From Macrocystis pyrifera (Eukaryota > Sar > Phaeophyceae > Laminariales > Laminariaceae), in assembly GCA_031763025.1 (NCBI GenBank), contig JASSKH010000017.1, forward strand, positions 10,530,626 to 10,594,625: a stretch of 64,000 nucleotides of DNA. Reading direction: 5' to 3'. This document shows positions 23,111-58,830 of the stretch, piece by piece. Positions within the stretch are counted from its first letter, which is position 1. Each line of letters begins with the position of its first letter. The position numbers and the translations under genes were made by a program. The notes under the pieces are model-generated. The model searched no databases and was not told the origin of the DNA. It saw nothing but the letters and a program-made list of their open reading frames with translations.

Positions 23111-23289
23111 CTCTCAGTACTTACTCCACTCGGGCGTTACATAGCGGGCTCTCCTCTCCCCTCCTCACTACGGAATACCTGGTATATATATATATCACAC
23201 GTGTCTTGGTTTTATGGGGAAACTATTTCAGTCTCTTCGTCCCCCGTCGACTCGAGTCGATTTTCGCAACGTTGGGTTCTGTAGGGCAC

Positions 23290-23525
23290 GTACAGAACCA
23301 TACCCAGTGTATTTTGCCTGGTATATTTCCCGTACCCGGACCTTCCGTGCGTTATGTACGACATTGATACCAGTACCCGGAACTTTTGTACGTTCTGGAC
23401 ATCCATACCCGTACCCGAAACTTCTGTGAGTTCTGTACGACCTCTATACCCGTACGCGGAACTTCTGTAAGTTATGTACGACATTGATACCCGTACCCGG
23501 AACTTCTTCAAGTTCTATAAGACTG
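23290..23525 (+). repeat. 41 bp minisatellite, about 5 copies
   Basis: GTACCCGGA-like starts fall at 23332, 23373, 23411, 23452 and 23493, a 41 bp period (one unit 38). Core: CCCGGAACTTCTGTAAGTT. Related, more decayed arrays lie at 25940-26160 and 42235-42450. Confidence 0.8.
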
Positions 23526-24199
23526 CAGCACAATAACTTTGTTACAACACCCGGAAGCCCGGTACGTTTTGGGGTTCAAATCCAGCAGTGCCCATTTTTC
23601 TTCACGGGCACCTTATGAATAAAACGAACCGCGGCCTGATAAAGCCTGATTGACGTAATCCCAGACGGTGGTCGAATTTCTTGTCCTCGGGAATGAGATG
23701 CGGACTCAGCTTCAAAATTATGTAGTATTCTTTATTTGCATTGCGCTCGGGGCCCAGTCTCTGCCGAAGGTTGTTGTGCGTGAGTCAGCTGCTGAAACGC
23801 TCTCGGACTGACGACTGGTATTGTCGGCACTGAGTACGGTACAATCGAGTGAGGGCGGACAAGATAGGGAATTAGGTTCGCGCCACAACGTTGCCGCAGG
23901 AATCATGACTCGAACTACCCGCTTCGTGCCAGTAACTGGGAGTGACTAAGGACCTTGCAGTCGTGTTTGATGCTTTTACCACCTCCTTCGCCAGACGAGC
24001 CTTCAGGGAACGATCGTCGACTTGCCCACCACGTCCTTCTCGTGCCGACGCTGCTGTCGCCTCTCGTATGATGCGCATTCTTAGCGACGGCAAGTCGTTT
24101 GGCTCAATTGTATAATTCTCTATTTTGGAAAGGTTCCCAAGCATTTTGCTCTACTTCAGGTGTAAAAAAGTAAAAAACAACAGCCGTGAGATCGAGGAG
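23526..24199. other. Stretch without a recognised gene
   Basis: A minus-strand frame at 23872-24144 (RMRIIREATAASARE...) is open for 90 codons and has protein-like composition, but I recognise no family and see no flanking exons. Confidence 0.3.
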
Positions 24200-24690
24200 T
24201 TCGCCGAAGCTCATCTTCGCAAGCTTTGAGTGATACTTCGATCGCGGGTACTTCGGGTTTTATGTGGCCTCATGGAGCGCATACCAGTGCATATATCAGA
24301 AAGAAAAAATCTGAAGCTGCAAAGTTCAAGGAGTGGGCGTGTCTATATTTGAGAAATAAAAAATATATATTTGAGGTTGCATGTAGCTTGCCACGCGTGG
24401 GATTTTTTTTCAACTGTCGAATTTCACAAGATCGCGGGCAACACGAATTCGCCGAAACTTATCCAAGCAATCTATGTGTGATACTTCGATCAGGGGTACT
24501 ACGGGTTATACGGTATACGGATGCAGGATACACATCCCATAAATAATACCTCGTACCTGGTACGAAGACGAAGACAAAACCTGTTTCATCAGAAGCTGCA
24601 GAATTCTAGGAGCGTTGTGCGTCTACATATATTTGAAAATTAATTTTCCGAGGGCGGACGTATTAGCTTCCCACTAGTAGGGAATATTAA
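24200..24690. repeat. Diverged direct repeat, period about 248 bp, two copies
   Basis: TTCGCCGAAGCTCATC...TGATACTTCGATC at 24200-24243 recurs at 24448-24491, followed in both by a GAAGCTGCA...AGGAG block. AT-rich and non-coding. Confidence 0.6.
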
Positions 24691-24735
24691 TATTTCCGGT
24701 GCGTATTTCATACCTGGTACTGCTGGTATACAAAA

Positions 24736-24783
24736 CTATATATATATATATATATACGAATATGATATATATATATATATATC
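24736..24783. repeat. (TA)n microsatellite
   Basis: Two TA runs joined by CGAATATGA, directly beside the tail end of the SINE at 24784-25093. Confidence 0.9.
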
Positions 24784-25093
24784 TTTTTCATCATCACTTC
24801 TACTTTCTAGCCCACTCGTAGGTTTTACCCTCGACGATCCTCTGGACAAGCCGTGGTCACAGGTGTCGTCCCTTCTCCCCCCCGGTACGTGCCTTCAATT
24901 CTATCGCGCATAGAGTTCAGCATTCCCACCGCTCGTCGATTTCCATCGCATGTAGCTAACTCACGCTCTCGCGCTTTCCGCTTATCAATTGTTCATCAAG
25001 AAAAAATCCCTACGAGCATGCACTCGGTGAGATTTGAACCCACGAAATCGATCTTGATAGGCACGCGCACCACCTACCAAGCCACCGGGGACG
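24784..25093 (-). mobile_element. tRNA-derived SINE, near full length
   Basis: Minus-strand copy. Its head holds an A box-like CTTGGTAGGTGG and a B box-like GGTTCAAATCTCACC; the body has the GCGGAAAGCGCGAGAGCGTG and CACCTGTGACCACGGCTTGT blocks, and it ends GTAAAAGTGATGA. About 310 bp. The family occurs at least 13 times in this window. Confidence 0.88.
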
Positions 25094-25939
25094 GACACGA
25101 TCATCGCTAAACTATACCAAGCGCGTACCACGGGTTCATGCACATACTGCTGAGCTGAGCAGCATCTTCCACTACAATAGTACGTGATGGAGATTTTGTC
25201 CGGTGTGTAAATCCTATCTGATACTACTGTTTTATAAATACCTGATATTAAATATATACCAGGTATACATATATATTGAACGCCATTATTACACCTACTG
25301 CTGTACTACCTGGTACCGAGCAGCACTGAATAATATTGATGTGTGTCTGTATTCTCGGGATAAATTGAAGTGGCGCGTGGGAGGACCAAATACTTGAAAA
25401 AATGGTGTATGTATGACACGTACTGCTTTCATACTAAAATATTGTACAAGGGTGTCAAATAATACTCATACGAGGCATTTGTAATACTATACCCGGTATT
25501 AACCTAATTTTTATATTCAACCATAATATATGTATTATTAATACTTTCCCTGTGTAATTTTTCAAGCCACCGAGGTCTACGGAGAGCTGCCCGTTTCTAC
25601 TGTTCGGAGCAGCGACGCTGTTATGGTCGAGGGCGGCTAAGAAGAGTCGAAAATGGTTCAGGGGGTCGTCGAAGCGAGACAGACTGTTTTATGGCGAGGT
25701 GGCAGAGGGGCGATGCGGAGAGGAACTGGTTACGCCACGCAGCTCAGGACGCCAAAAGCGGCGACAAGGGGAGGGTGGAGGGGAGCCCGTGCCGACACCT
25801 CGACGAATACAGAAACGAAACATTAGATTGGGGGGGGAAGGTATCGACCTGAATATGAATAGCCCTTGAATAAAAAAGTAACTTTTTGTTTGGTTGTGTT
25901 GAGTTGTTCAACGGGGGGGGCGCGACAGCGGCAGTGCTG
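25094..25939. other. Stretch without a gene
   Basis: AT-rich to 25560, with two TACC(A/T)GGTA 9-mers; then a mixed stretch with no repeat or coding signal that I can name. Confidence 0.5.
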
Positions 25940-26160
25940 TTTGTGGATTCTGCGTAGTACCGGTATGGAGGTCTTCCAGAACTCACAGAGCTTCCGGGTA
26001 AGGGTGTGAAAGTCTTACAGAACTCACAGAAGTTCCAGTTATTGTGCCACGGACGGACGTATTTCACATACTTTCCACGCAGGTATAAGATGTTGTACCC
26101 GTACCCTGGGTAGTAGAGGGAGTCACGGGCGTACAGAACTTGCAGAAGTTCCGGGAACGG
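25940..26160 (-). repeat. Decayed array of the 41 bp minisatellite
   Basis: Reverse-complement units such as CAGAACTCACAGAAGTTCC recur three to four times with TACGGGTAT-type spacers, matching the array at 23290-23525. Confidence 0.65.
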
Positions 26161-26519
26161 GTATGAGTATCATTATGGGCCCATATACTTTCAGGGTACG
26201 GGCACGGTAATGCCCGGGGAAAAACACGGCTCGAGGGGGCGGAAAACAAACACAAACAATGGTGAAATAATTACATTTTTCACAGAATGTGTGTGGTATA
26301 CCGCGATTGGTATTACACTCATACACCATTCTAAAGCATGAGATAAAAGGACTATTGGAGCCCTTACTTATGTTGCTACTATTAATACTGCTGGTGTTGT
26401 TGCTGTCTTCCACAGTTTTCACGATAAGAGCCGTCCCAACTTCCTTCGAAACGACTTCCGTGATCACAGGCTTACCGTCGTACAGGAACGAAGCCTCTCG
26501 CATAGTGCTGCATAGTGAA

Positions 26520-27882
26520 TACTGGAATATATCGTCTGACGCATCCTCTCCGGAGGTGGGCATAGTTGACGAACGCAGGGCGGAGATGTCAGACAGGGTA
26601 GCAAGGTACCAGACCGACTATCTGTAGTATGGAGAACCTGTTTATGCTACTCGTACCACAGACTGCTGTGGCTGCCTGGAGGGTACTTTTTGTGTAACGG
26701 ATTGCCTGATATCTCCCTTGGTTATTTTTAGTACTCTTACCGTGTTTGCATGCAGTGGCGCTGTTTCTTTAGCTCTCTTTGAAAGTGCTTGTCACATCTC
26801 CTGCGGGGAGGGACGAATTTTTTAGTTCTTAAAAATGTATTATCTTTCTATATTTGTTTCATCTGTTTCCTGCTTTTTTCCTTTAGTTTTCTCTCTTTCA
26901 TGGAATGTGTATACCGTGCCTGTCGTATCCAGTTAGTTGTTGTTGTTGTTCTCGCATTAATTCATCGTCACAATTCAATGCAGTCCGTGGTCGCAAGACA
27001 GGCTCCACATCCAATAACTCTGGGGTGGAATAATACCTCGGGAAAAACAAGACAGAATGAAAAAAACTCTAGTCGAAATATTGAAATCGAAATCGAAGTA
27101 AACAACCAAAAACGGAAGAGAGAAATAAATAAATTCAACCAAGAAAACAAGAAAGCAAGCAAGGAAACACACCAGAGAATACGCAGATTTTCGCAGATTG
27201 CAGGCTCGCAAGCTACGCGAGGGGTAGTCAAGAACCAGAAACAAGCATACTTACTACGCTACCAAGAACACCAGGAAATCCAAAACGAAACTAGTAGTAG
27301 TAGCAAAAACACGAAAAGGAAGACGACGACGCAAAACAGAATCAAAAGCAGAGAGCAAAAAGCATAAACGAAGATACAGAGACACCAATACACAAATAGG
27401 GGCGAACGGGAGAAAAGGAGAAAAGGAAAAAAATAGGGACAAAAAAAAAACGGGGGGGGGGGGCAGATACGACGAAAGGCAGGCACTAGTGCACATTGCA
27501 GACGAGCAAAGTTGCCCGGGTGCACCATGCTACAGTAGTTACTTGGGTCCCAAAGAAGGGAGGGCAGCATGACGATGATGGTCATTCCCAGGCGCCAGTC
27601 CCTTAGGCAGACCGCTCCCCCCCCCCCCCCTCTTCTCCGTCTCTCCCCTCCCTCCCTGCCCTACTGCGCGCTGGCATTGGTGTCAACATTTGTAGTCGCG
27701 GTAGCATGATAACATGGCACTGCATTGTCCACTCTGCTTACTGCATAGCAGTGCAGTATGTCTACGGCGTAGTTTCGTGACCATATGACTTGTATCTCTC
27801 TGTGGGATTGAAGAATCGGCAGACACTAGCTGTGCTGGAGGTCGACGGGTAGATATAAAAGTTTAATGTGAAGAACACACAC
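26520..27882 (+). mobile_element. LINE 3' end: last codons plus 3' UTR
   Basis: Starts with the C-terminal tail (GIVDERRAEMSDRVARYQTD then stop), followed by the family 3' UTR blocks and the family terminus GTTTAATGTGAAGAA with an (AC)n tail ending at 27882. About 600 bp of unrelated A-rich sequence (27000-27640) interrupts the UTR. The 5' part of the LINE is missing, as usual for truncated insertions. Confidence 0.7.
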
Positions 27883-27965
27883 TGCAGCAGTAGTGTTGGT
27901 AAGAAACTACAATAAACATGCTTGCTCAAGTTTCAAGCATAATCTAAGCAACATGGTCGTGCTTA

Positions 27966-28546: not shown

Positions 28547-28651
28547 TTACGGTGGTCCATAGTTAACATGACCAAATTTTGGTAGTAAAACTAGGTAAAT
28601 GTATAAGTTTTTATGTATACCATAGGTCCTATTAACTCTGGATCCCCGTAA
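28547..28651. mobile_element. MITE, 105 bp, TA-flanked
   Basis: Begins TTACGGTGGTCCATAGTTAA and ends TTAACTCTGGATCCCCGTAA, with TA on both sides (28545-28546 and 28652-28653). Same family as 60480-60583. Confidence 0.8.
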
Positions 28652-28690
28652 TAGAGATCCCGCCGTTCAGAGGCGGGGATGGTGTCAAAA

Positions 28691-28800
28691 GGATTACCCT
28701 GGGCTGGCTTCTTGGTCGAGATTTTACTCGTATGGCTCAGCGGGTAATATCCTCACAGTTGGCTCATGGGACGCGCGTGCCAGGGATCCGAGTGCTGAGC
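28691..28800 (+). other. tRNA-like repeat, copy 2 (decayed)
   Basis: Shares GATTACCCTGGGCTGG and GGCTCAGCGGGTAAT...CCTCACAGTTG with copy 1, but the B box is degraded (GGGATCCGAGTGC). Confidence 0.35.
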
Positions 28801-29808
28801 GTCACGTGGGACGAGTTGTCGAGCGTGGATTTGACTCGTTATATGCGCTCTCTCGTCGCCGTCAAGGACATGGTGCTTGCGGAAAGGTTCGACGACAGGG
28901 GGCAGGTGGTGGCGCGAGTAGACTCAGTGGACTGTCTGGACTTTGGTGCGACCAGGAGATCAACGGAGGGTAGTGGCCGGCTTTCCTCCAGCAACTCACC
29001 TTTGGGGGGCTTTTCAACCAAGAGTTGGGGGGAGCAACGTGGCCGGGCACTCTCCAGTTGATCTTTGTGTCCTCGATGTTAGATTTATTTTGAAAGTTTG
29101 GTGGTGGTAAGAGTTTTTTTTTTTGGGTGATATCAATTTCTCTTGTCTCGTGCCTCCATAGTTCTGCGGAATGAAGTAAGAAATTTTGGAGCGTGTAAAA
29201 CGTTAATCTCAAGTTAAATGTTAACACGATTGTTTGTTAGCCTTGACGGGTATACTTGTAGGTTGCAGGACAGTACGAGTATGCCTGTGCCGGGGAAGAG
29301 ACGGGGTTCGCTGATGACATGTATACTTGTGCCTGGTATGCGCAGAAGCTCAGGGGAATTAAGAAATTTCGTCAGGGGAACTACGAAATTTCGGCGCGGC
29401 TACACTGCAGTTCGTGTGGAATATTGAACACACTATACACGCGTTTCGAAACACGAAAGCTTCCCTGTGCGAGTAAACTGGTAAAATGGATAGATTACTT
29501 CGTCGGCTACTCATGACACAATTCCACGAAACCCAAACGCCGCAGGCACGACTGCGGGCTGTGTGCGGTGATCGTGTGCCAACACCCGGTGCGAAAACGC
29601 CTTCCATGTGATGAGATATTACTAAATTTCGCTGTTAAAAAGCAGAAAAGCATGCTCAACTAAGCAAATTCCTGCGGACTTGGTTAGACACAGAACTTGC
29701 TTATATCAGCAACAAAGTTGCTTGACTGAGCGTTTGTTTTCTCTAAATATGCAATAATCAAAGCAACCCCATCTCTGAGTTGCTTACCAGCACTACAGCA
29801 ACACACAC

Positions 29809-30364
29809 ATAGTGAGATTAACATTACAACCCAAGGCTTATATTTTTTCTCCTCTTTGAAGCACAATCAGAGTGTATCGCACTGCCAATCATACGTACAC
29901 ACCACATTGCATCATATACGATAATTGGGTCAAGGGTGGTCGAGCGTATTCAATTCGAGCACGCACAGGGAAGGATAATTGACTGGGCAAGATCGGTGGT
30001 GGTGGAGCAATATTCGACGACTTTTACTTGTGTCTGTCTTTTCAACTTTGGTTTTTCTTTTATTTTCTCATCCCATTTATCATTCTCGTCCTTCTTCTCT
30101 CTCTCTTTCCGGGGTCACATGCATGGCAGGCTCTCTCTTCTCCTTCCTCCCCACCACGGTTCGCGCCTTGCACTTTAATCGCGAGAACCTTAAGCACTTT
30201 GCTTCCTCGTTGACTATTAATATCATCGAATTACGCCTACACAGCTACTATTAATACCACTAACAGGCGCTCTCAGCAGTTGATTCCTTCGTTTTTATTT
30301 TGGTATCGGAATTGAAGCTTCGAGCCTCGTGGGATTCGAACTCCAACATCAACTCTTATTAATA
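29809..30364. other. Stretch without a gene
   Basis: Pyrimidine-rich at 30020-30140. GGGATTCGAACTCC at 30331-30344 looks like a minus-strand B box, but no A box was found beside it; the following sequence is interrupted by a MITE. Confidence 0.4.
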
Positions 30365-30469
30365 TTACGGGGGTCTATAGTTAACAGGACCTATGGCACA
30401 CATAAAAACCTATATATTTAGTTAGTTTTTCTAACAATATTTGGTCCTGTTAACTATGGACCCCCGTAG
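30365..30469. mobile_element. MITE, 105 bp, TA-flanked
   Basis: TTACGGGGGTCTATAGTTAA at the left and TTAACTATGGACCCCCGTAG at the right; flanked by TA. Confidence 0.82.
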
Positions 30470-31241: not shown

Positions 31242-31244
<3 letters not shown>

Positions 31245-31529
31245 CCCTGCACACGTTCTGAAGGCACAATAAAACAATAATACGTACGTACGTACACACC
31301 AGGTTTTTATCCGGGCAATAAAAAAAAAGACGTAAATCTGGTCCGTTTTCACTCAAAAATAGGTACATAATCATACCAGGTATCAAATAAAACATACCCC
31401 CCACGACCCGCGTGACTGGCCGAATGGGCATTGCACCTGTTTTTGAGGCACAATTATAGTGTACAACTGGATATGGCTATTTTGGATAAATATGCCAGGA
31501 GAAGGGGAAGGTCTTGGAAGTTCAGGGTG

Positions 31530-32900
31530 GTCACCCCCTGGACAATAGACAATAGACAATGGCCCTTGCAAATTAGCATTAAAATTTGGTGCAATGGACG
31601 GGTCTATTGTCGTCGGCAAAGGCTATCGATTGGCACGTTCCTCGATCCATTGTCGTCGGTAATGTCTATCGATAGGTTACGTCCCCAACATATTGTTCAG
31701 GCAGGAGTGTGCTGAAGTTCCCGGGTTGAAAGCTATTGTCACCGACAATGGCTATCGACGGATAGCTTGCAGAATCTACTGCGGTCCACAGTGGCTATCG
31801 ATGAACACAGTTCGTCATCTATTGTGGCCGGCAATGGCTGTCGATAGGTACATTTCTAATCTATTGTGGCCGGCAATTGCTATCCATGGACACCGTTGAG
31901 AATCGATTGTGCCTCAGCATTGTCTATCGATGGACACCATCACCCGCCCATTTCTACACCTACAATGCACTCTGAATAAGCAGCGCAATATTTTGTGCCT
32001 CAGCAATGTCATACTTTCATCTTGTGATCACCAATATGGAATGAGTGTACGGTGAATCGTGATGAGCAGCAATGCCCGTGCTTGGCATAGCGTGAAGGAG
32101 GGCTGCAACGTTGTGTGTCTCAGCAAGGCAGTGGGCATCATGGGGGTTAAGTGTGCTGCATTGTCGGCTGTGTTCTTGTGGTTGGTACTCTGTGTTATTT
32201 ATAGTGATTCCCAATCGGATACACTCTGTACGGATAAGATAGATGAGGTAAGACGTGCATATACCCCGGACAATAGAAAGGAAATATAACATTGCCGCTA
32301 CAAGCAGTAGCCCCGAAAAAGCGTGTGTCAATGGATATTATTAACGACAACAGACTGGTAACGCCGGCCAACGATAGACATTGTGAACGACACTAGACTG
32401 GCAACACTGTTTATCGATAGACATAGTTAACCACACGGACTGGCAACGCTGTCCATCGATATATGTTGACGACAATAGACTGGCAACGCTTGTCTATCGA
32501 TAGATATTGTCAGGGAATAAAATATTTTCGGCAATGGAGACAATATGCCTATGCCCTGAAAATGGAGTCACCAGATTGTCCGTATATGGCCATTGTCCTG
32601 AACAATAGACGTTCGGGAATCGACCGTGATGGATATTGTTTGAGCAACAGACTAAAAACGTTTGTCTATCGAGGGCTATTGCCGCCAATAATATACACGT
32701 AATTTTATCCATCAATAGCCATCGTCACCCACAATAGACTGTCGGCCGTGTTTTCGCAATAGACTATTGCCTAAACCTATTGTATTTCGTGGAATGATTC
32801 ATGTCGATGGCCATTCTTGACGACCGCCGAAGCTTTTCTGTTGCCGCCAGCAATGGGTACGCGATTGTGTCCCAACAATTATTATAGCCATCGCCACCCA
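31530..32900. repeat. Decayed satellite with palindromic CTATTGTCG core (about 43-50 bp units)
   Basis: CTATTGT(C/G)G(T/C)CGGCAATGGCTATCGAT-type units recur dozens of times in both orientations (CTATCGATAG, GACAATAGAC). The unit is clearest at 31730-31940 and 32350-32520. A related array with a clear 43 bp period is at 34660-34956. Confidence 0.75.
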
Positions 32901-33282
32901 CAATAGATTGTTGGCTAGGCTCCGAAAAATATGAATGTGATTTACTTCATTTCACTACAGGACAAAAAACACAAGTTAAGGAACGGAACGCTGATAATCT
33001 TCTTGTCAAGGTGGTTTTATTTTTAGTGTCCAGATTATTTTTGAAAGTGCAGTTAATATAAGACAACGTACGGGTAATAAATCGAATTTATTTCCGAACA
33101 AAAAAAAAAAAAAAAAAAAAAAAGATGACCATCATCCGAAGAAATAACTCTTACTTACTTGTTTTCAATATGGGACAAACAAACTCGGCATGAGAAACGG
33201 AAATCTTAGAATTTTCAGCATAAATAAGGTGATTTTAGTTTAATGATCTACCGTTTATTCAAAGTGGAGTTATTAAACTGCC

Positions 33283-33321
33283 GGCGTCCCCGGTGGCTTG
33301 GTAGGTGATCCGCGAGCCTAT
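33283..33321 (+). mobile_element. SINE head-only fragment
   Basis: The first 39 bp of the SINE (GGCGTCCCCGGTGGCTTGG to CGCGAGCCTAT) without body or tail. A 3'-truncated SINE is unusual, because reverse transcription starts at the 3' end; later deletion or recombination is likely. Confidence 0.75.
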
Positions 33322-33343
33322 TGGTAACTGCTGTCATCAACTA

Positions 33344-33450
33344 TTACAAAGGACCTTAGTAAATAGGACCAAATAGTGTTGGTAAAAACAGCGAAATATA
33401 TAGTTTTTTTGTATGTACCGTAGGTTCTATTTAATATTCCCCCCCCGCAA
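33344..33450. mobile_element. Degenerate MITE of the TTACGG family
   Basis: TTACAAAGGACCTTAGTAAA...ACCGTAGGTTCTATTTAAT...CCCCGCAA matches the family at both ends and in the middle, but is the most diverged of the four copies. Confidence 0.65.
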
Positions 33451-33515
33451 GTGTGCACTGGTAGTTTCGGAAATATTGATTCGATTTAATACTCTCACTT
33501 TGTCCTTTTTTTTTA

Positions 33516-33793
33516 AATCACTTTTACTTTCCAGCCTAATTCGTAGGAGGATTTACCCTCCGCGCGCTTCTGGACAAGCCGTGGTCACAGGTGTCGTCCC
33601 TTCTCCTCCCCGGTACGTGCCTTTAGTTTTTATCGCGCATAGGGTTCAGCATTCCCACTGCTCGTCGATTTTCATCGAACGTACCGCTAACTCACGCTCT
33701 CGCGCTTTCCGCTAATCAATTTTAAGCAAGAAAAAGTCCCTACGAGCATTGCACTCGGTGATATTTGAACTCACGAAATTGATCTTGATATCT
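33516..33793 (-). mobile_element. tRNA-derived SINE, tRNA head truncated
   Basis: Minus-strand copy from the A-rich end at 33516 to GATCTTGATA at 33793, where the head breaks off before the A box. Confidence 0.82.
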
Positions 33794-34659
33794 TGGTGCG
33801 CAAGTTTGGATATCTATATATAATGTCTTTTCTTCAAATGAGTGTGAGAGCGTATGGTCTCCACAACATGATAATGTCGGTTCACATTGCCACATACATA
33901 CAGAACATGACATACATGTTTCAAATGTGTTCTCTGCGCAGGGCCCTGTGGAAACCCGAGTTCGATTCTCGGATTGGACACCATGTTTCAAATGTGTTCT
34001 CTGCGCAGGGGTCCTCTCTTGCCGGCTAGGAGGCAGCTCGATACCCCTCGTGGTGGTAACCTGTCTTATAGCCACTAGCGACCTCCTGGGGTCCATTCTT
34101 CGCTTGCGTTCACCACAAATCGCACCTCTACGGAACTGTTCTGACCTGCGGGCATGTTGGCTCCGACGTGCTGGTTGTAGTGCTGCTGATCCATGCTAGC
34201 TCCTTCTCTCGCTCTCGTTGATGGACAGGCCCGGTGTTGAGGACGTTAGGTGGGTCTCAGAGTATTTGGATTGCTCTTGGCCAGGGAAAAACTTGTGTGT
34301 ACATCCGCGCTCCTTTCTGTCTGAGGTTTGACTTCCTGGAGGCGTGTTTCCCTGGGCATTTCTCATCATCGTCCCCTTTTTGTTAGGTCGACTGACAGCT
34401 CGGCATGGAACCTGTCTTTGCTCCGCATGTCAGCCTCCCTGGCAATCCTCTTGAAGGCAACCCTCCTCGTTCGGCATCAATCCATTGTCTATCGGGCCTC
34501 TCGACGGCTACCTTAGCAATGCCCTGTTGCACCGAACCGCTGTAACATACATACCTGGTACCTGGTCATATTTGGTAACTTGTGTTCCAAAAGATAAAAT
34601 CTCATTCTCATCGAAAAGGCTATTCTCAATTAGGAAAATCGGGTACGCGATTGATTGTG
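33794..34659. other. Stretch without a gene; short tandem repeat with B box-like motif
   Basis: CATGTTTCAAATGTGTTCTC occurs at 33915 and 33982 (67 bp apart). Between them GAGTTCGATTCTCGG resembles a B box. The rest, to 34500, has short frames without motifs. Confidence 0.4.
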
Positions 34660-34956
34660 CAAAAAAATATCCTCGACATGGCTATCGATGGATAGCTTGT
34701 ACCATCTATTATGGCCGGCAATGACCATCTATAGACATCTCGCACAATCTATTGTGGCCGGCCGTGGCCATCGATAGACTAATCGCACAATCTATTGTGG
34801 TCGGCAATGGCCGTCGATAGACCTCTCGCACAATCTTTTATGGCCACCAACAATCTATCGTGGCTGGCCATCGATCGACACCTCGCACATTCTATGGTGG
34901 CCATCGATGGAGGAAGTTCTCCATCTATTGTGTTCGACTATCCATCGACAATATCA
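34660..34956. repeat. 43 bp minisatellite with CTATTGTGGCCGGCAATGGC core
   Basis: CGCACAATCT starts at 34741, 34784 and 34827, a 43 bp period, about six units in all. Shares its core with 31530-32900 and 38590-38705. Confidence 0.8.
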
Positions 34957-39289: not shown

Positions 39290-40388
39290 TTTATTATTGT
39301 TAATAGTGTCTGCTTACATTTTGTTTGATCCTCCGTGCTTTTCGTTTTGTTATTTATTTGTTATCTTTCTTCCTTCTTCAATAGTTGCCCTCATGAAGAG
39401 GTCTTGTTTCGGGGGTCTGGGGTGGACGACGAGCCTGCTTTGTTCGTTGGTTTTGTACTGTCTGTTGTCTGACGCATCCCTGTTTGACGCATCCTCTCCG
39501 GTGTGGGGCATGGTTCACGAAAGCGAAAAGGGAGGGTAGCAAGGTCCCAGACGGACTACAGCCAGTAAAACCTACGCTAGCTACTCGTGCCTTGGCTTTC
39601 GGTTTGCCTATTATTTTCCCTTGGTTCTTGGTCTCAGTCTGTTTATAAGTAGTGGTGTTCTTTTTAGCTCGTTCGTTTTGAAGTGTCGCCACATACCCTG
39701 CGGGGGGGGGGCACGACAGCAGTTTGTTCCTTCTATTTTTTTTTCACTTTTTTTTCTTTTTCTCTTTCGATTTGTCGTCCTTGTTTTTGTTTCTTCTTTG
39801 TTTCCTTTCGTTTCTTTCATGGAATGTGTATGTCGTGCCTGTCGTATCCACTGGGTATGATGGCATGCATGGCATTGCATTGCATTGCATTGCATTGCAT
39901 TGCATTGCATTTTTTTTTTTTTTTTTTTTTTTTCCTCGTCACTTTTACTTTCCAGCCCGGTCGTAGGAGGTTTTACCCTCTCGACGATCTTCTGGACAAG
40001 CCGTCGTCACAGGTGTCGTCCCTTCTCCCCCCCGGTACGTGCCTTTAGTTTTTGTCGCGCATAGGGTTCAGCATTCCCACTGCTCGTCGATTTTCATCGA
40101 ATGTAGCTAACTCACGCTCTCGCGCTTTCCGCGTATCAATTTTTTATGCAAGAAAAAGTCCCTACGACCATGCACTCGGTGAGATTTGAACCCACGAAAA
40201 TGATCTTGATAGGCACGCATTGCTCACTACTGGTACGTGGCAACGTAGTATCTCTGTGGCGTAGCTTTGTGACCACATAACTTGTGTCTCTTTTAAGATT
40301 GAAGAATCGGCACGGACACTGGTTGTGGTGGATGTCGACGGGTAGAAAGAACGGTTTAATGTGAAGAAAACAACAACACAACCCATGC
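39290..40388 (+). mobile_element. LINE 3' end with SINE inserted
   Basis: Family 3' UTR blocks in order (ACGACGAGCCTGC, CTACTCGTGCC, TTGGTTCTTGGTCT, ACCCTGCGGGG, ATGTCGTGCCTGTCGTA), then a (GCATT)n stretch, the SINE at 39911-40218, then the family end GTTTAATGTGAAGAA with a (CAA)n-like tail. Confidence 0.75.
39911..40218 (-). mobile_element. tRNA-derived SINE, tRNA head slightly truncated
   Basis: Poly(T) start 39911-39933, body and B box in the minus sense, ending within the head at GATCTTGATAGGCAC. GCATT flanks both sides, consistent with a target duplication. Confidence 0.87.
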
Positions 40389-42074: not shown

Positions 42075-42234
42075 TACCAGGTATGTATCTGACGGTTCAC
42101 ATTTTGTTGTTTCCGTTCGCCCTTGCTCCGGGGGTTAAAAATCAATGCGTACCGGGCTCCGGGCTCCCGGGTGTTCATTGTGACAAAGTTGTACCTTTGC
42201 CGCGGGTATTGTTCAGCAGCCTTTTAGGTAGTAT

Positions 42235-42970: not shown

Positions 42971-43726
42971 CGGGAAGAGAGAGCACGCTTCTTCCACAGG
43001 TGGATGTCGATAGACGGACATTTTTTTCCCCACTGAGGGTTGGCGAGGTTGTAGGTGAAGAGTTTCCCGCACTGCTAGCTGCGCGCGGGGAGCCGTCCCG
43101 AGGCATTTAACTCTGTGACCACCGTGCACTTGACGTTTTTCTTCCCGACCAGCAGCTCAAACACCGAGAAGTGTTGGCACTCCGGCGACGTCTTCTGATT
43201 ACTTCTCTCCCACACCTTCCCCAAGCATATGGCTGTTGCGGTGGCAGCTGGTGGTTGTTCTGATGGTTGTGGTGTTACTGGTGATTGTGGAAGTAGATAG
43301 AGGTGGTGGTTGGTGGAGGTGATGGCGGCGCCGATGGTGATGCTTGTGCCGCTGTGATGGTCGATCGATCCCGCCCGTGAGATTGGCTTTCATACACTGC
43401 GTCCGTGACGGCCACACCAGCACTGATGGCCGTGAGTTGAATGGTCTGTATTTATGTGGGGGCAGCTGGTGTGGTAGGTGTTGCGCGTGGAAATATGAAA
43501 TATATATGAGGATTCGTGCAGAAAAAGAGGGAAAAAAACAACAATACGTGCTTGTATCATACGTACGTACCTGGTACCAGGTTGTAAGTTTTTAAAAAAA
43601 AGCTCGTAATTTGTAGTTTCAGTTTGTATTATTTAAAATACTTCAAACGAAGAACAGCTTCTGCTACAAAAATCAAAGGGTAAATCCAATGTCATATTCA
43701 GGTAAAACTCAAATTTTCAATTCATC
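42971..43726. other. Stretch without a recognised gene
   Basis: GGTGGTGGTTG-type simple sequence at 43230-43340; otherwise nothing recognised. Confidence 0.4.
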
Positions 43727-44270: not shown

Positions 44271-44641
44271 GTGTGTTTGTTCTTCACATTAAACCATTCT
44301 TTCTACCCATCGACATCCAGCACAACCAGTGTCCGTACCGACTCTTCAATTCTAGAAGAGATACAAGTTCAGAATCTGTGGTCACAAAGCTACGCCACAG
44401 AGATATATTATTAATACTACAGTACGTACGTACGTACGTACGTACGTACGTACGTACGTTGCCATGTATGCAGCAAGCACAACATAGTGGACAATGCAAT
44501 GGCATGTCATCATACTGGATACGACAGGCACAACATCCACATTCTATGAAATACAGAAACGAAACGAAACCAGGAAAAAAAAAACCAATAAACAAAGATG
44601 ACAACTCGAAAGAGAAAAAGAAAAAGAAAAACATATAATAG
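44271..44641 (-). mobile_element. LINE 3' end in the GGGACGG array
   Basis: Minus-strand insertion reading TTCTTCACATTAAACC, CGACATCCAGCACAACCAGT, CACAAAGCTACGCCACAGAG, then the polypurine UTR. GGGACGG minisatellite resumes on both sides. Confidence 0.8.
44422..44459. repeat. (GTAC)n microsatellite
   Basis: Nine or more GTAC units inside the LINE fragment, at a point where sister copies read ATACTACGTTGCC. Confidence 0.9.
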
Positions 44642-45020: not shown

Positions 45021-45399
45021 CAGCTCAGTGTTTAGGGTGTATCTCTATTAATAATGGATACCTGGTATGTATGTAGATACTGCTGCTGCAGGAGTCCAAA
45101 GCTTCCAAATATATGTGGAGGCATTTTCGAGGGTACCACTAGCCCAGCAGGGCGTATCACATCTGATAAACCGGACCTACACCAAGGTAGCGGGAACTCT
45201 TTCGACTACAAACCGCGCAGAAACCAGTACAAAACCGTGACCTTACAGAACGATTCGATTCCACTGCTGCTGTCGACGTGACCGCGGTTTGTCTATGTTC
45301 TCAAGTCTAACCGGACCCTTAAATAAGTGATCTATGTAGCGGTTTGAAGGTTTGTAGGACTGTGACTTGACAAAACCGGCGCAGTATGGTTTCGATGGC

Positions 45400-47563: not shown

Positions 47564-47804
47564 ATGCATGTGTGTGTTCTTCACGTTAAAAACACGTTCT
47601 ATATATCCGTCGACATCCAGCACAACCAGTCAAATCAAGGTGTCCGTGCCGATTTTTCGATTTTTCAAACCTAGAGAGACACAAGTTATGTGGTCACGAA
47701 TCTACGCCACGGAGATACCAGGTATATATTAATACAACGTTGTGTGTTACCTCTGCAGTAAGCACACAAGCAGTAGACAATGTAATGCCATATCATACTG
47801 GATA
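47564..47804 (-). mobile_element. LINE 3' end
   Basis: TTCTTCACGTTAAAA, CGACATCCAGCACAACCAGT and the following UTR blocks to CATATCATACTGGATA. Carries TACCAGGTA at 47716, missing in sister copies. Confidence 0.75.
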
Positions 47805-48577
47805 TTTTTATTTCATTTTCTTGTCTTCTTTGCGGTGACCCTATGTGATTTTCATTTCTCTTCCTTTCTCCGATTGATAAGCCTTATTGAAGGAGTCGTG
47901 TGGCGTGGGTGGATGACGAGCCTGCTCTGCTTGTTTCGTACTGTCTGACGCCGAGGGGCCGGGCATAGTTGACGAACGCTGGACGATGGTGGCAGACAGG
48001 GTAGCAAGGTACCAGGCGGGCCAGCAGGGAGACCCTGGCTGTGCTACTCGTACCATAAACTGCTGCCGCTACCTGGAGCATGCCTTGTGCTTTGTTTGGT
48101 TTGACTGTTATTTTTACCTTGGTTCTTAGTCTTACTCTGTTGACGACTAGTGGTGTTTTCTTCTTTTTTTTTTTTTTTCCAGCTCGTTTTTTTCAAGTGT
48201 CTGCCACGTCCCCTACGTGGGGGTACGATGGTTTGTTGCTATACTGAAGTATATACATATACCAGGTATATTTTAGTTTATTTTTTGTTTCTTTTCTCTC
48301 TCGAATTGTCTTTGTTTTTGTTTTTGTTTTTTCTCTTTGTTTCGTTTTTGTTTCTCTAAGTCATGGAATGTGTATGTCGTGCCTGTCGTACGCAGTATGA
48401 TGACATGGCATTGCATTACATACGTGGCAACGTAGTATCTCTGTGGCGTAGCTTTGTGGCCACAGAACTTGTATCTCTCTAGGTTTGAAGAATCGGCACG
48501 GACACTGGTTGTGCTGGATGTCGACGCGTAGAAAGAACGGTTGAATGTGAAGAAAAAACAACAACAACAACAACAAT
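47805..48577 (+). mobile_element. LINE 3' end, long (770 bp), (CAA)n tail
   Basis: Runs from TTGTCTTCTTTGCGGTGACC through the C-terminal tail region and all UTR blocks to GTGAAGAAAAAACAACAACA. It lies tail to tail with the minus copies at each side. Confidence 0.8.
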
Positions 48578-48760: not shown

Positions 48761-48789
48761 GTTTTACAGAAAAAAAAAATTTTTTTTTC

Positions 48790-49405: not shown

Positions 49406-50620
49406 TAGACCACTTGCAATAAGACCAAAAAAAAAACAAAAAACGCTCTGGGGGGAAGCGATTTCTAGGTATGAAAAGACGAATAGTTTAGATGAATCAA
49501 CAATAATATCAATATCCAGTTTCCTCCGTCTTGTTCTTTTGGGAAATAGGGCTGGCATGTGGCATGCCAAAGCACAGCAGTACGAGCAGGCTCTGGTCTA
49601 CGGCAGAGCTCTTGACCAACACTGCGAGGGAATCGCGGCGGCATCCCCGCCTGCTTCTGTAGTTTACTAGCATGCTAAGACGATGTCCTTATGGCGTTGT
49701 TTGATTTGTTATTTGCTGTGTTCCGAGTACTACTGCTGTGCTGCTGCTGTATGTAGTAGAAGCTCACAGCCCAGCTTTGTGCCAGTACCTTTATTTTTGC
49801 TATATACTATACTCGCACGAGAACTGGCTGTTGTACAGCAGCAGCAGCAGTATATTTTTTGTTGTTAACTCGATGCTTGTTCTCGCCCGCAGTATCGCAT
49901 TCACCAACGAGCTTACCGGGTCTCGACTCGGCGGCGTGCGACTGGTGAAGCGTCGATGCGCACAAAGATCGCCGGTGGCAGCGCGAAGTGCGTCGGTGGA
50001 GTCGCTGTTGTTGAGTGACTTTCCAAGATGGTGATAGAGGATGTGGCTGCACAAGGATGTGTTGTGTCTTCTTCTTCATGTCTGCTTGGATTTTTTCGTG
50101 CGTGTTCGCCGTCTATTTCTGCTCCCTCCTGCCAGGCCTGTGTGACAGGTCATCATCCCTACATGCATTCCGGTTAGCGATAGTGCCTGCTGTTTCCAGC
50201 CGCGGAACACCACAACAAGCTGATGAGCGATGTTGCGTCGGCGACCTCGTGCTACTGCTGCACTGCTGTAGTAGTAGACATGAGGTGCTCGTGGCGCGCG
50301 ACCTGGTGCGAGTTGTTGAAAGGTGCTGCTGCTGTTGTAATAGTAAATAAAGTTCAGGTCATCCTTGTTATTGTTTCCAACTTTCTGCTCCACACCATTT
50401 TTTTGTGTCACTTTGGTACGAGATTACGCGGCCATCACAGAACATTGAGCAAAACTAGAGGGACGAGGAGCCGTGACCTTGACCTGTCTTTTCTATGGTG
50501 GACTCCCACGGCGCACACATCAACAAATGCTCGTACCGTCGTGTCCGGGGCTAGAGGCAAAAATTGTTGGTCGCCGATAGCCTGCTCCAAGTCCTTGCAC
50601 AACAACCCACACACAGGCAT
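49406..50620 (+). repeat. Left arm of the foldback element
   Basis: Reverse complement of 51845-53039 with only a few differences (for example CAGCAGCAGCAG versus CAGCAGCAG near 49835). Near-identity means recent origin or ongoing gene conversion. Confidence 0.9.
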
Positions 50621-51290
50621 ACGAATAGACTATGGAATCGTGCTCGTATTTTTAATAGACTACGTCACTCAGCTGTGAGTTTTTCCAACTTTCTGCAAAC
50701 TTTCTGCTCCACACCATTTTTTTGTGTCACTTTGGTACGAGATTACGGGGCCATCACAGAACCTTGAGCAAAACTAGAGGGACGAGGAGCCGTGACCTTG
50801 ACCTGTCTTTCCTATGGTGGACTCCGACGGCACACACATCAACAAATGCTCGTACCGTCGTGTCCGGGGCTAGAGGCAAAAATAGTTGATCGCCGATAGC
50901 CTGCTCCAAGTCCTTGCACAACAACCCACACACAGGCATACGAACAGATTATGGAATCGTGCTCGTATTTTTAATAGACTACGTCATTCAGCTGTGAGTT
51001 TTTCCAACTTTCTGCAAACTTTCTGCTCCACACCATTTTTTTGTGTCACTTTGGTACGAGATTACGCGGCCATCACAGAACATTGAGCAAAACTAGAGGG
51101 ACGAGGAGCCGTGACCTTGACCTGTCTTTTCTATGGTGGACTCCCACGGCGCACACATCAACAAATGCTCGTACCGTCGTGTCCGGGGCTAGAGGCAAAA
51201 ATAGTTTATCGCCGATAGCCTGCTCCAAGTCCATGCACAACAAGCACACAGAGAGGTAGACGAATAGTCTAACTGCTCTATCACTATTGC
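50381..51290. repeat. Tandem triplication, 319 bp units
   Basis: CTTTCTGCTC starts at 50381, 50700 and 51019, exactly 319 bp apart; the third unit is cut short. Each unit keeps a minus-strand frame of about 60 codons (PLAPDTTVRAFVDVCAV...), of no known family. The right arm has one unit. Confidence 0.92.
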
Positions 51291-51294
51291 TCTT

Positions 51295-51742
51295 TTTACT
51301 TAGTTAAGTGTTCACCGGGATGCATAGTCCCCTTTTTCCTTCTCGTATATTTCCCCTTGCACGTCCCTTTTGGCTCATGCTTGGGGTAAGTATGTATGTG
51401 TCTGAGCTTTGGCTTCCCATTTTATTTATTTATTTGGGATTCTTCTCCTTTTCTTTTTCTTTTTCTTGTTCTTTTTCGGTTTGGTTTTTCGTTGCTTCTC
51501 TTTCTTTATGGTGTATTTTGGTTGCTGGCGTATGTATGTATGTTGTGTCGGCCGCACCTAGTGCGAAGGCATGGTATTACGTAGGCTATTAATGCATTAC
51601 GGTGTGTTATCTCTGTGTCGTAGTCTGTGACCACAGAGCTCGTATCTTTCTAGGGTGAAGAATCAGCACGGACACTGGGCTTGCTGGATGTCGACGAGTA
51701 GAAGAACGGTTTAATGTGAAGAAACACACACACACACACACA
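51295..51742 (+). mobile_element. LINE 3' end inside the foldback element
   Basis: Collinear with 53230-53695: GTTCACCGGGATGCAT, TTGCACGTCCCTTTTGGCTC, GTTGTGTCGGCCGCACCTAG, then GTTTAATGTGAAGAA and (AC)n. 5'-truncated. Confidence 0.85.
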
Positions 51743-51844
51743 GTACTGATTGGCTGGTCAGTTGAATCGGTTCGATCAGGGAATCATGGTCGCAATGAGC
51801 AAGGCAGCAGTTAGACTATTCGTCTACCCCTCTGTGTGCTTGTT

Positions 51845-53039
51845 GTGCATGGACTTGGAGCAGGCTATCGGCGATCAACTATTTTCGCCTCTAGCCCCGG
51901 ACACGACGGTACGAGCATTTGTTGATGTGTGCGCCGTGGGAGTCCACCATAGGAAAGACAGGTCAAGGTCACGGCTCCTCGTCCCTCTAGTTTTGCTCAA
52001 TGTTCTGTGATGGCCGCGTAATCTCGTACCAAAGTGACACAAAAAAATGGTGTGGAGCAGAAAGTTGGAAACAATAACAAGGATGACCTGAACTTTATTT
52101 ACTATTACAACAGCAGCAGCACCTTTCAACAACTCGCACCAGGTCGCGCGCCACGAGCACCTCATGTCTACTACTACAGCAGTGCAGCAGTAGCACGAGG
52201 TCGCCGACGCAACATCGCTCATCAGCTTGTTGTGGTGTTCCGCGGCTGGAAACAGCAGGCACTATCGCTAACCGGAATGCATGTAGGGATGATGACCTGT
52301 CACACAGGCCTGGCAGGAGGGAGCAGAAATAGACGGCGAACACGCACGAAAAAATCCAAGCAGACATGAAGAAGAAGACACAACACATCCTTGTGCAGCC
52401 ACATCCTCTATCACCATCTTGGAAAGTCACTCAACAACAGCGACTCCACCGACGCACTTCGCGCTGCCACCGGCGATCTTTGTGCGCATCGACGCTTCAC
52501 CAGTCGCACGCCGCCGAGTCGAGACCCGGTAAGCTCGTTGGTGAATGCGATACTGCGGGCGAGAACGAGCATCGAGTTAACAACAAAAAATATACTGCTG
52601 CTGCTGCACAACAGCCAGTTCTCGTGCGAGTATAGTATATAGCAAAAATAAAGGTACTGGCACAAAGCTGGGCTGTGAGCTTCTACTACATACAGCAGCA
52701 GCACAGCAGTAGTACTCGGAACACAGCAAATAACAAATCAAACAACGCCACGAGGACATCGTCTTAGCATGCTAGTAAACTACAGAAGCAGGCGGGGATG
52801 CCGCCGCGATTCCCTCGCAGTGTTGGTCAAGAGCTCTGCCGTAGACCAGAGCCTGCTCGTACTGCTGTGCTTTGGCATGCCACATGCCAGCCCTATTTCC
52901 CAAAAAAACAAGACGGAGGAAACTGGATATTTAATATTATTGTTGATTCATCTAAACTATTCGTCTTTTCATACCTAGAAATCGCTTCCCCCCCAGAGCG
53001 TTTTTTTTTTTTTTTTTGGTCTTATTGCAAGTGGTCTAT
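51845..53039 (-). repeat. Right arm of the foldback element
   Basis: Reverse complement of the left arm. Its innermost part matches the third 319 bp unit (51019-51290) better than the first. Confidence 0.9.
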
Positions 53040-53697
53040 AGGTTGGACTTTTCTTTGCTACGTACTCGTACCGCCAACTGCTGCGGCCGTTCGGTATGTA
53101 TTGGCTTGCTTGGTGCTTTGATTTTTTTCCATGAATTAACTTTTTACTATATTTTCCCCTTCTTAACCTTATGAAAGAGAAGTACTACATAGTGGGTGGG
53201 TGACGAGCGTATGTTGGCCCACTCATTATTTCTCTTTTTACTTAGTTAAGTTGTTCACCGGGATGCATATTATAGTTCCCGTTTTCCTTCTCGTTTTTTC
53301 CCCCTTGCACGTCCCTTTTGGCTCATGCTCGGGGTAAGTATGTGTGTGAGCTTTGGCTTCCCATTTTATTTATATATTTGGGATTCTTCTCATTTTCTCT
53401 TTCTTTTTCGGTTTGGTTTCTTCGTTGCTTCTCTTTCTTTATGGTGTGTTTTGGTTGCTGGCGTATGTATGTACCTGGTATGTTGTGTCGGCCGCACCTA
53501 GTCCGAAGGCATGGTATTGCGTAGGCTATAAATGCATTACGATGTGTTATCTCTGTGTCGTAGTCTGTGTCCACAGAGCTCGTATCTTTCTAGGGTGAAG
53601 AATCAGCACGGACACTGGGCTTGCTGGATGTCGACGAGTAGAAGAACGGCTCCAAGGAAGATCAAAAAAAGTTTAATGTGAAGAACACACACACATG
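53040..53697 (+). mobile_element. LINE 3' UTR, right half of the split LINE
   Basis: Begins at the CGTACTCGTACCGCCAACTG block, which in uninterrupted copies follows the stop codon closely, and ends GTTTAATGTGAAGAA with (CA)n at 53697. Confidence 0.8.
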
Positions 53698-54828: not shown

Positions 54829-54924
54829 ATATACATGTCTATATATATCGCTGTCTGTCGTGGCTGGGCAGTCACGGCAGGTGTCGACTCAACCCTTTTG
54901 AACTTCAAAACCTATTCATTGTAT

Positions 54925-55283: not shown

Positions 55284-55314
<31 letters not shown>

Positions 55315-55420: not shown

Positions 55421-55784
55421 ATTCAATTCGTATTCTGTTTCAGTGCAGATTTTTTTTTTCATTGCCTATTTGTCCTTATTTTCTAGTCTTGCTTTTTTTG
55501 TTGTTACAGCAGTTAGTTGTACCCGGTACGCTGGCGCTTCACTAAGTCTTGCTTGACCCTTGAAGTTGCGATTATTTTTGTTTTTGGTCTTCCCAGTTTC
55601 CTCACAATCTGTGGCCACAGAAGAATCATCAGTATCTCTCTTGGGTTTACTGAGATGAAGCTGGGTAGAAAAGACGATTTATTTTACGTGAAGACAACAC
55701 ACCAGGCAACACACTCGAGATCCATCCGTGGCCACAACACTTCACAGAGATCCCACACAGCAGTTCACATAATATAACCGTACA
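55421..55784. other. Stretch without a gene
   Basis: Pyrimidine-rich at 55440-55510; the part at 55600-55700 resembles very diverged LINE 3' UTR. Nothing else. Confidence 0.4.
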
Positions 55785-56560
55785 TTAAAGTAGACCGTTC
55801 TTTCTACCCGTCGACATCCAGCACAACCCGTGTCCGTGCGGATTCTTCGATCCTAGAGAGAGAGTTCTGTGGTCACAAAACTACGCCACAGAGATACCAC
55901 ATAGTTATTCAGAAAGAAGAGTAGACAATGCAATGCCATGCCATCATGCTGAATGCAACAGGCACGACATACACTTTATATGAAAGAGAGAACGGAACAG
56001 AAACAAAGGCACAAAAAACGAAGATAAAACTAAAAACAAACAATAAACAGAAAAAAACAAGAAAACTAATCGAAAGAGAAAAAGGAAAAAGAAAAGAAAA
56101 AACCTTCATCATGCCTCCCAACGGGGGATGATGTGGCAGACGCTTGAAAGCTTAAACGAACGAGTTAAACAGCAGTAGTAGTACCAATACTTTTAAACAG
56201 AGTAAAGCTAAGAACCAACGCCAAAGGAAATAACAGGCAAACCAAAGCACAAAGCACCCTCCAGGTAGCCTTGAGCAGTTTGTGGTACGAGTAGTACATA
56301 GCCAGAGGTTTCCCCTACTACTAGTTGATGGTCGGTCTTGTAGCTTGCTACCCTGTCTACCGTCTCCGTCCTGCATTCAGTTCGTCAACAAACTATATAT
56401 GCCCCACCCCGAGAGAGGATGCGTCAGACAAATACAAAAAAACAAGAAGAAAGCAGGATCGTCATCCTTGCACGCCACACAACAACTCCTTCCAGAACCG
56501 ACATGGAAGAAGAAAGGAACAATATATCAAATGAAAATCACGGGGGATCAAATCAAGCGC
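55785..56560 (-). mobile_element. LINE 3' end, about 780 bp
   Basis: ATTAAAGTAGACCGTTC, CGACATCCAGCACAACCC, polypurine block, CAACGGGGGATGATGTGGCA, TTGAGCAGTTTGTGGTACGA and GCTACCCTGTCTACC in the minus sense. Confidence 0.75.
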
Positions 56561-57189
56561 AAAACGAATGAGAAGAGACGAAGAAGATCATGTTTTGAAC
56601 CAGCCGCGGCAGTTTTGTTCGCGGCCAGCCGCCGTTAATCCGCTTGCGCAGGCGAAGTTTCCGAACCTGCCAGCCAAAAAAAACACGTCATTTACTAGGT
56701 ATGGCGGTTGGCGTGTGTACCAGCTCGTAGCTGGTGTGTACGCCTAGACTCGATTGCCGATGGCCGGTCAATACACTGTCAAAATAAATGTTCGAGGCAA
56801 ACGTATAGCCACTGTTAAGTGACTTGTACGAGAAGCTTCATTAGAAGAGAAGAAGATGGTGCGGTGACCCCAAGCCACAGCAGTGTTGATTCATTTGCTC
56901 AGCTGGAAGCGGATGATGGTGAGCAAAGTAGAGTGAACAAGTGGGCGTGCAAACGCTCCTGTTTGTTGTTCCAATCTTGATGATCTTCAACAGATACATA
57001 TATCTCCTACGACGACGTTCGTCAGGTGATGACACTACCGTACCCGACTACGGCCTATGACAACGTTCGTCAGGTAATGACACACCCAAGATCGATGTTT
57101 TACAGATTCCTTTTACCGTATACTACCAGATTTTTCCGTGTTATCCAGTGACGACAAAATGATAGCTACTACTGTCAAGTAACATCTCC
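56561..57189. other. Stretch without a recognised gene
   Basis: ACGACGTTCGTCAGGTGATG and ACAACGTTCGTCAGGTAATG at about 57010 and 57062 are a short direct repeat. No coding signal. Confidence 0.4.
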
Positions 57190-57585
57190 AATATAATTTC
57201 CATTGGAAACCCGCACAATTATTTGAAATCACAACGAAGAGCACACAGGGCCGAGCGAACGAAACACACACCCACACACACCAGCTCAGCAGTACAAGAG
57301 GCTCGCACAAGCTCGCAAAGAGGGTGACCTGATGTGGCGGCTCTACGGCGCGTGCGGCTGTGGTGCTAGCGCTATTATTTTCCTGGTCATTTAATAAATA
57401 GTTGCTGTGCCCAGACGTACTCATGTCTCACTAGCGCCACCGCACAGCATCAAGCACCGGCAGCAGCATGAGCAGGGGGTAGAGGAGCGGCACGAGCTCC
57501 CTCGCCGTTGTAGCTGCTACGGAACAGCAGGATAGTTGCTCGTCTAGTACCTCTGCTACAGCTACTATAGGTACCTACTTCTAGC
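57190..57585 (+). repeat. Left arm of a second long inverted repeat
   Basis: Inverted counterpart of 59243-59640, clearly diverged. Shared blocks include GAGCGGCACGAGCTCCCTC and GCTACAGCTACTATAGGTAC. Confidence 0.7.
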
Positions 57586-58084
57586 GAGAGAAGCAACGAG
57601 ACAAAAATCTCGTTATTTACAGGGAATTGACACTACTCCTAATTTACCGCTTGGAGTCTACTACACAATATACTGCTGCTGCTGTACTATCAATACCGCT
57701 GTAGTATCGAAATTGAACGTACCAAGTAATCATTATTCCGGCAAGCGTGGTACCGCTATCCCAACACGAACACCCAGACACGGATTTGCTGTTGATGATT
57801 GAGCACATATATATACCTGGTACAGCACTGTTCGTTGGTACTGCTGCAAAAGTACTGCTGTACGTACACAGCAAGCGCCAAGCACCACGTTCGTTCGTGC
57901 AGCAGTACCATGGCCGGAAATATAATTAATGGCGTTTAATTTCGATAGTAGACTCCAAACGGTATTATATTATCGTCAGCACGCCCCGCCCAAAAAACAC
58001 TGCTTTAAAACTATAAAACACCGTTGTACTTTACGAGTATTAATATGTTGGTTGTTGTTGTTGTTGTTGTTGTTCTTGTTCTTG

Positions 58085-58830
58085 TTGTTTTCTTCACATT
58101 AAACCGTTCTTTCTACCCGTCGACATCCGGCACAACCAGTGTCCGTGCCGATTCTACAATCCTAGAGAGATACAAGTTCTGTGGTCACAAAGCTACGCCA
58201 CAGAGAGAGATAATACGTTGCTACGTATGCAATGCAATGCCATGTCATCATACTGCGTACGACAGGCACGACATACCCATTCCATGACCTAGAGAAACTA
58301 AACGAAACAAAGAGAAAAAAAACAAAAACAAAAACAAAGACAATTCGAAAGACAAAAAGAAACAAGAAAAATGAAACAAATATATACCTGGTATATGTAT
58401 ATATATATAGCAACAAACCATCGTACGCCCCCCGCAGGGGATCTGGCAGACACTTGAAAAGGAGCTAGAAAAAAAAGGAAAGAGAAGAAAACACCACTAG
58501 TCGTCAACAGAGTAAGACTAAGAACCAAGGGAAAATAACAGGCAAACCAATCAAAGCACAAGGCATGCTCCAGGTAGCGGCAGCAGTTTATGATACGAGT
58601 AGCACAGCAAGGGTCTCCCTGCTGGCCCGCCTGGTACCTTGATACCTTGTCCGCCACCATCGCCCAGCGTTCATCAACTATGCCCGGCCCCTCGGCGTCA
58701 GACAATACGAAACAAGCAAAGCAGGCTCGTCATCCCCCCACGCCACACGACTCCTTCAGTAAGGCTTACCAATCGGAGAAAGGAAGAGAAAGAAAATATA
58801 ATGAAGATCACAATAATATTGATACTATTC
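58085..58830 (-). mobile_element. LINE 3' end, 745 bp, (GTT)n tail
   Basis: Clean copy: tail (GTT)n, TTCTTCACATTAAACCG, all UTR blocks, C-terminal region (CTTGTCCGCCACCATCG), to GGAGAAAGGAAGAG. Carries the empty SINE site CCATGACCTAGAG and empty MITE site CACCACTAGTCGTC. Confidence 0.85.

Follow-up and report, generated by a model that had tools for sequence, protein, structure and literature searches.

The window analysed here, a stretch of 64,000 nt from the kelp Macrocystis pyrifera (C197:10530626-10594625, from an assembly that totals 537,376,219 bases over 223 contigs), carries many copies of the odd palindrome TACCWGGTA (W, A or T), which the initial annotation had read as a possible excision footprint of a TA-targeting transposon. 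All 15 of the sites that it reported (15/15) were recovered as exact matches. The form TACCTGGTA lies at 23176-23184, 24554-24562, 24711-24719, 25307-25315, 34552-34560 (followed by an imperfect second copy, TACCTGGTACCTGGTC), 43568-43576 (followed by an imperfect inverted copy, TACCTGGTACCAGGTT), 45059-45067, 53472-53480, 57814-57822 and 58385-58393, and the form TACCAGGTA at 25257-25265, 31374-31382, 42075-42083, 47716-47724 (within a dispersed repeat) and 48260-48268; no strand is assigned to any of them. The sites at 48260 and 58385 are common to two related repeat copies on opposite strands. The sites are real; a reading of the two 9-mers as distinct variants was rejected: TACCTGGTA is the reverse complement of TACCAGGTA, i.e., a single site seen on opposite strands.

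The motif is far more frequent than composition predicts. In dinucleotide shuffles of the window the mean was 0.41 and the maximum 3, and none of 100 shuffles attained 15; among palindromes of the same shape the runner-up had 8 copies, and the most frequent one-mismatch neighbour had 4. The initial annotation had proposed a genome-wide count against a control as a check, and across the assembly (537.4 Mb) this gave a large excess (121,279 copies of TACCWGGTA vs 2,421 of the reversed-pattern control). For closer analysis, 24 stretches of 10 kb from the same assembly (L-numbered loci below; 7 of the 24 come from a single contig with duplicated DNA), were combined with the window, and 92 sites were found in their 301,440 determined bases (305 per Mb). 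The spacing of the sites is somewhat clustered (9 gaps below 200 bp vs 4.1 expected in 234 kb). A microsatellite origin of the motif was considered and rejected.

The evidence that the motif arises by insertion comes from repeat copies with and without it. The matched presence/absence pair described for the window holds: the repeat carrying the site at 53472-53480 has a sister copy in which there is an empty TA (51539-51540, no strand assigned), and both available homologues of this site, the second of which lies in L013, have TA alone (2/2), so that the filled copy shows a clean 7-bp gain. The same was observed at L009:5952, where TA alone is present in 5/5 homologues, and at L033:4818, inside a dispersed repeat, where it is present in 4/12 (the remaining 8 are more divergent there). 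At these three unrelated loci the scars thus read as if an element had inserted at TA and duplicated it, as Tc1/mariner/pogo elements do, and the motif is a derived gain in three repeats with empty sisters rather than an ancestral part of them. In L013, one repeat is present in two copies, each with its footprint at a different TA (L013:1687 and L013:2682). At many further sites every homologue has the motif with the same centre, which is expected of scars that were duplicated together with their surroundings. Within the window, the site at 47716 has a related copy without the motif (44272-44420), in which the alignment gap is not a clean 7 bp, and the site at 48260 is missing, inside larger gaps, from the copies near 60479, 5125-5397 and 39614-39881. 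A scan blind to the motif, in which isolated indels of 3-25 bp between repeat copies were collected from 33 sequences (330,330 bases), yielded 299 distinct indel sites, 11 of which were of 7 bp; TACCTGG accounted for three of these 11, each at a locus unrelated to the others. Among indels of at least 7 bp, no further class had as many unrelated members, the three members of an 18-bp class all lying in homologous copies.

The product is uniform. When the spacer of TACC-N{k}-GGTA was varied from k=0 to k=19 in 234 kb, k=1 gave 79 sites (70 with a central W and 9 with a central S, i.e., C or G), and every other k gave 1-11; seven control arms at k=1 gave 1 to 17 sites, the highest count belonging to TAGG, which we ascribe to a repeat. 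Since only k=1 stands out, excision would have left nearly always the same 9-mer. The centre of the motif is an A:T pair, with 121,279 W centres vs 12,109 S centres genome-wide (S control, 2,024). Sites with at most one mismatch number 318,292 vs 79,465 for the control, and the excess over control is 119,969 for one-mismatch sites and 118,858 for exact sites. If all changes were equally likely, 9,228 S-centre sites in excess would be predicted, which is close to the 10,085 found, so the S centres look like mutated W centres. On a simple model with one control pattern and one common age, these counts correspond roughly to 10% divergence per site and about 309,000 footprints in total; both figures are rough because local control palindromes vary (among those listed, one-mismatch counts ranged from 9 to 81 in 224 kb). 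The scars do not look like the remains of a single very recent burst.

The sequence around the scars also differs from that around other TAs. In 204 kb, the flanks of 43 de-duplicated sites (from 56) were compared with those of all 11,831 TAs, and A was found to be avoided at +1 (p=1.4e-4) and T to be favoured at +3 (p=2.5e-5) and +6 (p=1.5e-7); weaker departures (p<0.05, uncorrected, twelve positions tested) were found at +4, +7, +8, +9 and +10, and positions +2, +5, +11 and +12 were not significant. Genome-wide, with duplicated sites included, A occupies +1 in 15,292 (7,704 + 7,588) of 242,558 flanks, or 6.3%, compared with 17.8% across all TAs of the 204-kb sample. The target is a palindromic, AT-rich environment around TA, as is preferred by Tc1/mariner/pogo elements; a preference so extended and symmetric would be expected of a dimeric transposase. 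The target consensus of Tc1 and Tc3 is CAYATATRTG, which the flank preference of the kelp footprint resembles.

Scars also occur on top of one another. The tandem double TACCWGGTACCWGGTA is present 5,620 times in the genome, and its control was not found at all (0). The doubles comprise 1,409 of TACCAGGTACCTGGTA, 609 of TACCTGGTACCAGGTA and 3,602 direct ones, and triples are indicated by the overlapping entries C125:3891596/3891603 and C126:293403/293410. If excision followed random reinsertion into a scar, direct doubles and the two inverted types should occur in proportions of 50:25:25. The excess of TACCAGGTACCTGGTA fits the joining of two filled ends, each reading inward as TA-CCAGG-TA, and for this reason we propose CCAGG rather than CCTGG as the tip of the element; duplicated copies of one double could also swell a class. 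Nine viral contig records with the double motif, each with 2-3 motif copies, were set aside as chance occurrences.

The excess of the motif and the 7-bp gains at TA both support the reading of the initial annotation, and TACCWGGTA is very likely the excision footprint of a cut-and-paste DNA transposon that inserts at TA. The element would insert at TA, duplicating it, and would leave through staggered cuts made within its own ends, presumably by a DDE transposase. Each flank would then keep its TA and an overhang derived from the tip, most simply CCAGG, with a 3' overhang of about 5 nt (3-5 nt would be workable). Two such overhangs would be nearly self-complementary and could anneal by four G:C pairs around a central A.A mismatch; end joining and repair of the mismatch would give TA-CC(A/T)GG-TA, which is 7 bp longer than the empty TA. 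Four G:C pairs flanking an A.A mismatch, within 5 nt, would explain why the arms are fixed and why the centre is A:T.

Several observations weigh against this interpretation. Homologues spanning the site were available for 43 of the 92 sites (for the other 49 there were none), and clean empty copies were found at the three loci only; at most of the 43, the copies all have the motif or are too divergent. At a fourth locus, L018:1754, the motif is common to two homologues and one homologue is 11 bp shorter, not 7. At L011:439, 4/4 homologues differ from the motif by substitutions (TACCTGGTG, TACCTTGTG), and so does one homologue each at L012:6058 and L036:3272; in these cases the footprint may have decayed or substitutions may have created the site. 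The direct doubles (3,602) exceed the half of all doubles that random reinsertion predicts, which suggests additional slippage or tandem duplication. The uniformity of the kelp scar is itself unusual, since footprints in assays such as that of the pogo element Passer, for which 0-4 bp are given in the available part of the article (PMC9976928), are more heterogeneous.

The search for the source element and its transposase adds to these points. Scans for TA-flanked inverted repeats that start with CCWGG detected none in 254 kb (the window and L005-L023) and none in 204 kb; the pairs detected in the 254 kb were pairs of footprints, or arms starting with TACCA or TACCT without CCWGG, several of which fall inside the long inverted repeats of the window. 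The 254 kb were also scanned for insertions of 40-9,000 bp that distinguish repeat copies; of those whose junctions were read by eye, none had CCWGG ends. None of these three scans included L033-L037. The inward flanks of all 153 sampled TACCAGG sites had no common terminal repeat. The DDE_3 domain (Tc1 type) had no match from 3 candidates, its controls matching in 3/14 genomes, and PF01359 (Transposase_1, mariner) had none either, a result that is uninformative because its controls were also without a match. Transposases of the pogo type (DDE_1), whose presence is a point in favour of the excision reading, gave 39 matches in the genome (best E 1.6e-27), many with open frames, and Pfam confirmed DDE_1 in two of them. 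Six of these loci (L040-L045, on contigs C202, C162, C32, C194, C202 and C56) were compared: similarity is about 98% among five of them, across 2.7 kb or more (3.5 kb for three of the five), and 72% for the sixth. A comparison of two copies across about 6 kb showed two blocks of about 2.7 kb, 98-99% alike, with a tandem repeat between them. The likeness runs to the edges of the 6 kb, so that the ends lie outside, and it may reflect a larger duplication; the TACCTGG words within this family are not at its ends.

The window also contains a TA-flanked miniature inverted-repeat transposable element (MITE) of about 104 bp (60479-60584), with inverted ends TTACGGGGGTCCATAGTTAA, which is missing in related repeat copies; related ends were found at 28547-30469, 30368-30466 and L018:4339-4437. 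It belongs to a family that targets TA and has ends different from CCWGG. The palindrome TAGGWCCTA, apparently enriched as well (15 in 224 kb), owes this, we think, to copies of the MITE.

Other origins of the 9-mer have to be weighed against excision with mismatched overhangs. In one of them the element would carry CCAGG in the same orientation at both borders, as a 5-bp direct repeat inside the TA, and its cohesive CCWGG ends would rejoin without a mismatch, the central base reporting the orientation in which the element had sat. CCWGG is a perfect 5-nt cohesive sequence, and such rejoining would account for the uniformity of the product and for its constant A:T centre as well; it does not by itself predict that TACCAGGTACCTGGTA outnumbers TACCTGGTACCAGGTA (1,409 vs 609), and no such direct-bordered element was seen, so that we consider it improbable. 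The abundance of direct tandem doubles (3,602/5,620) is what might be expected if the 7 bp were a templated or slippage insertion, a recurrent polymerase error at TA-rich sites. Against this stand the identical letters inserted at unrelated sites, a target preference that extends about 10 bp to each side, and the absence of any other spacer length that stands out, and an origin of this kind appears very improbable. A palindrome as abundant as TACCWGGTA might finally be a selected functional site, e.g., one bound by a protein, which we regard as scarcely credible because the motif was gained by insertion in three repeats that have empty sisters and because the one-mismatch excess about equals the exact-site excess, as in decay without constraint.

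If TACCWGGTA is the footprint of a TA-inserting element, the jumps of that element would far outnumber the copies that it left, and the element would now be rare or extinct in the assembly. By the rule of three, the scans still allow about 6,000 elements genome-wide, so "rare" holds only relative to the footprints. The recognisable scars above background would number about 119,000 and, with the decayed ones, about 0.3 million under the simple model. We see an even chance that they record a previously undescribed TA-specific transposon with long, near-self-complementary tip overhangs, which moved by pure cut-and-paste 100,000-300,000 times in the kelp lineage, each departure being repaired to an identical 7-bp scar, and left almost no resident copies. 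If this is true, the genome is a dense and dateable record of excision, in which the scars outnumber the elements by orders of magnitude. One footprint present 121,279 times, as single, double and triple scars with measurable decay, would allow excision rate, age, repair fidelity and target choice to be measured from scars alone. A cut-and-paste element of this kind could be a major source of 7-bp indels and yet be nearly invisible to a repeat annotation that depends on resident copies.

Apart from the scars and the MITE, the window contains a similar reading frame in three tandem copies (12011-14428, minus strand, and 15400-16020), which lie 782 bp apart and are 98-99% identical over 300 bp; a frame that matches Peptidase_S8 lies nearby. 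At 31605-34845, a 42-43 bp unit with ATCGAT forms several short arrays, in which copies match at 74-78%. A large inverted repeat (49511-52931) has arms of 768 and 353 bp that are 97-99% complementary, and embeds a 319-bp tandem repeat of 2.7 copies. Perfect or near-perfect microsatellites of TGCAT and GTAC are present at 39866-39911 and 44422-44459.

To our knowledge, the footprints of DNA transposons have mostly been studied singly, in excision assays. A full-text literature search for both 9-mers as words returned no paper, and among the titles and abstract openings listed in searches on the subject none reported such footprints. The superfamilies piggyBac, hAT, CACTA and PIF/Harbinger were considered and rejected: the unit repeated in the kelp consists of TA and five fixed letters, and hAT, CACTA and PIF/Harbinger make target duplications of other lengths. 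Excision of piggyBac is described as seamless at TTAA in the accessible portion of its source (PMC8151067). Another candidate group is PlantMar, whose elements are placed in plants and stramenopiles in the pages available of PMC7325037. Among brown algae, the lineage to which the kelp belongs, Ectocarpus carries about 12,000 Mariner-Tc1 copies, which fall into 17 families, and its Mariner-Tc1 elements and MITEs include TcMar-2_Ec32 and TcMar-N1_Ec32 (PMC12477816); the accessible part of that account gives neither footprints nor terminal sequences for them, and the words "footprint" and "excision" are absent from its main text as available.

The pogo/Tigger group targets TA. The kelp genome shares with it the DDE_1 transposase genes (39 matches), and unlike Passer, with its footprints of 0-4 bp in the portion available of that article, the kelp scar is a uniform 7-bp gain. 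The initial annotation had drawn an analogy to Sleeping Beauty, the footprint of which has the form TAC(A/T)GTA; the form of the kelp scar fits it, and membership in Tc1/mariner stands as a candidate assignment only. The scar likewise has the form of the staggered-cut, tip-derived footprints of Tc1/mariner/pogo elements, with a tip sequence that we infer. In the available parts of the sources, Sleeping Beauty and mariner transposases are said to make their first nick three nucleotides inside the element, which gives 3' overhangs (PMC7827188), and end joining is described as leaving footprints built from these transposon overhangs (PMC7827188; PMC8151067). This is a known kind of scar, and what is new in the kelp is its scale and uniformity, with no resident copies in the sample: unlike the situation with Sleeping Beauty, a single genome holds more than 100,000 copies of the footprint, and no element was found in the 254 kb scanned. 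As in Sleeping Beauty (CAG footprint, as far as the available text goes), the target is TA, the TA is duplicated and the footprint would derive from the element's tips by end joining, but the kelp scar has 5 bp between its TAs, not 3, and is more uniform.

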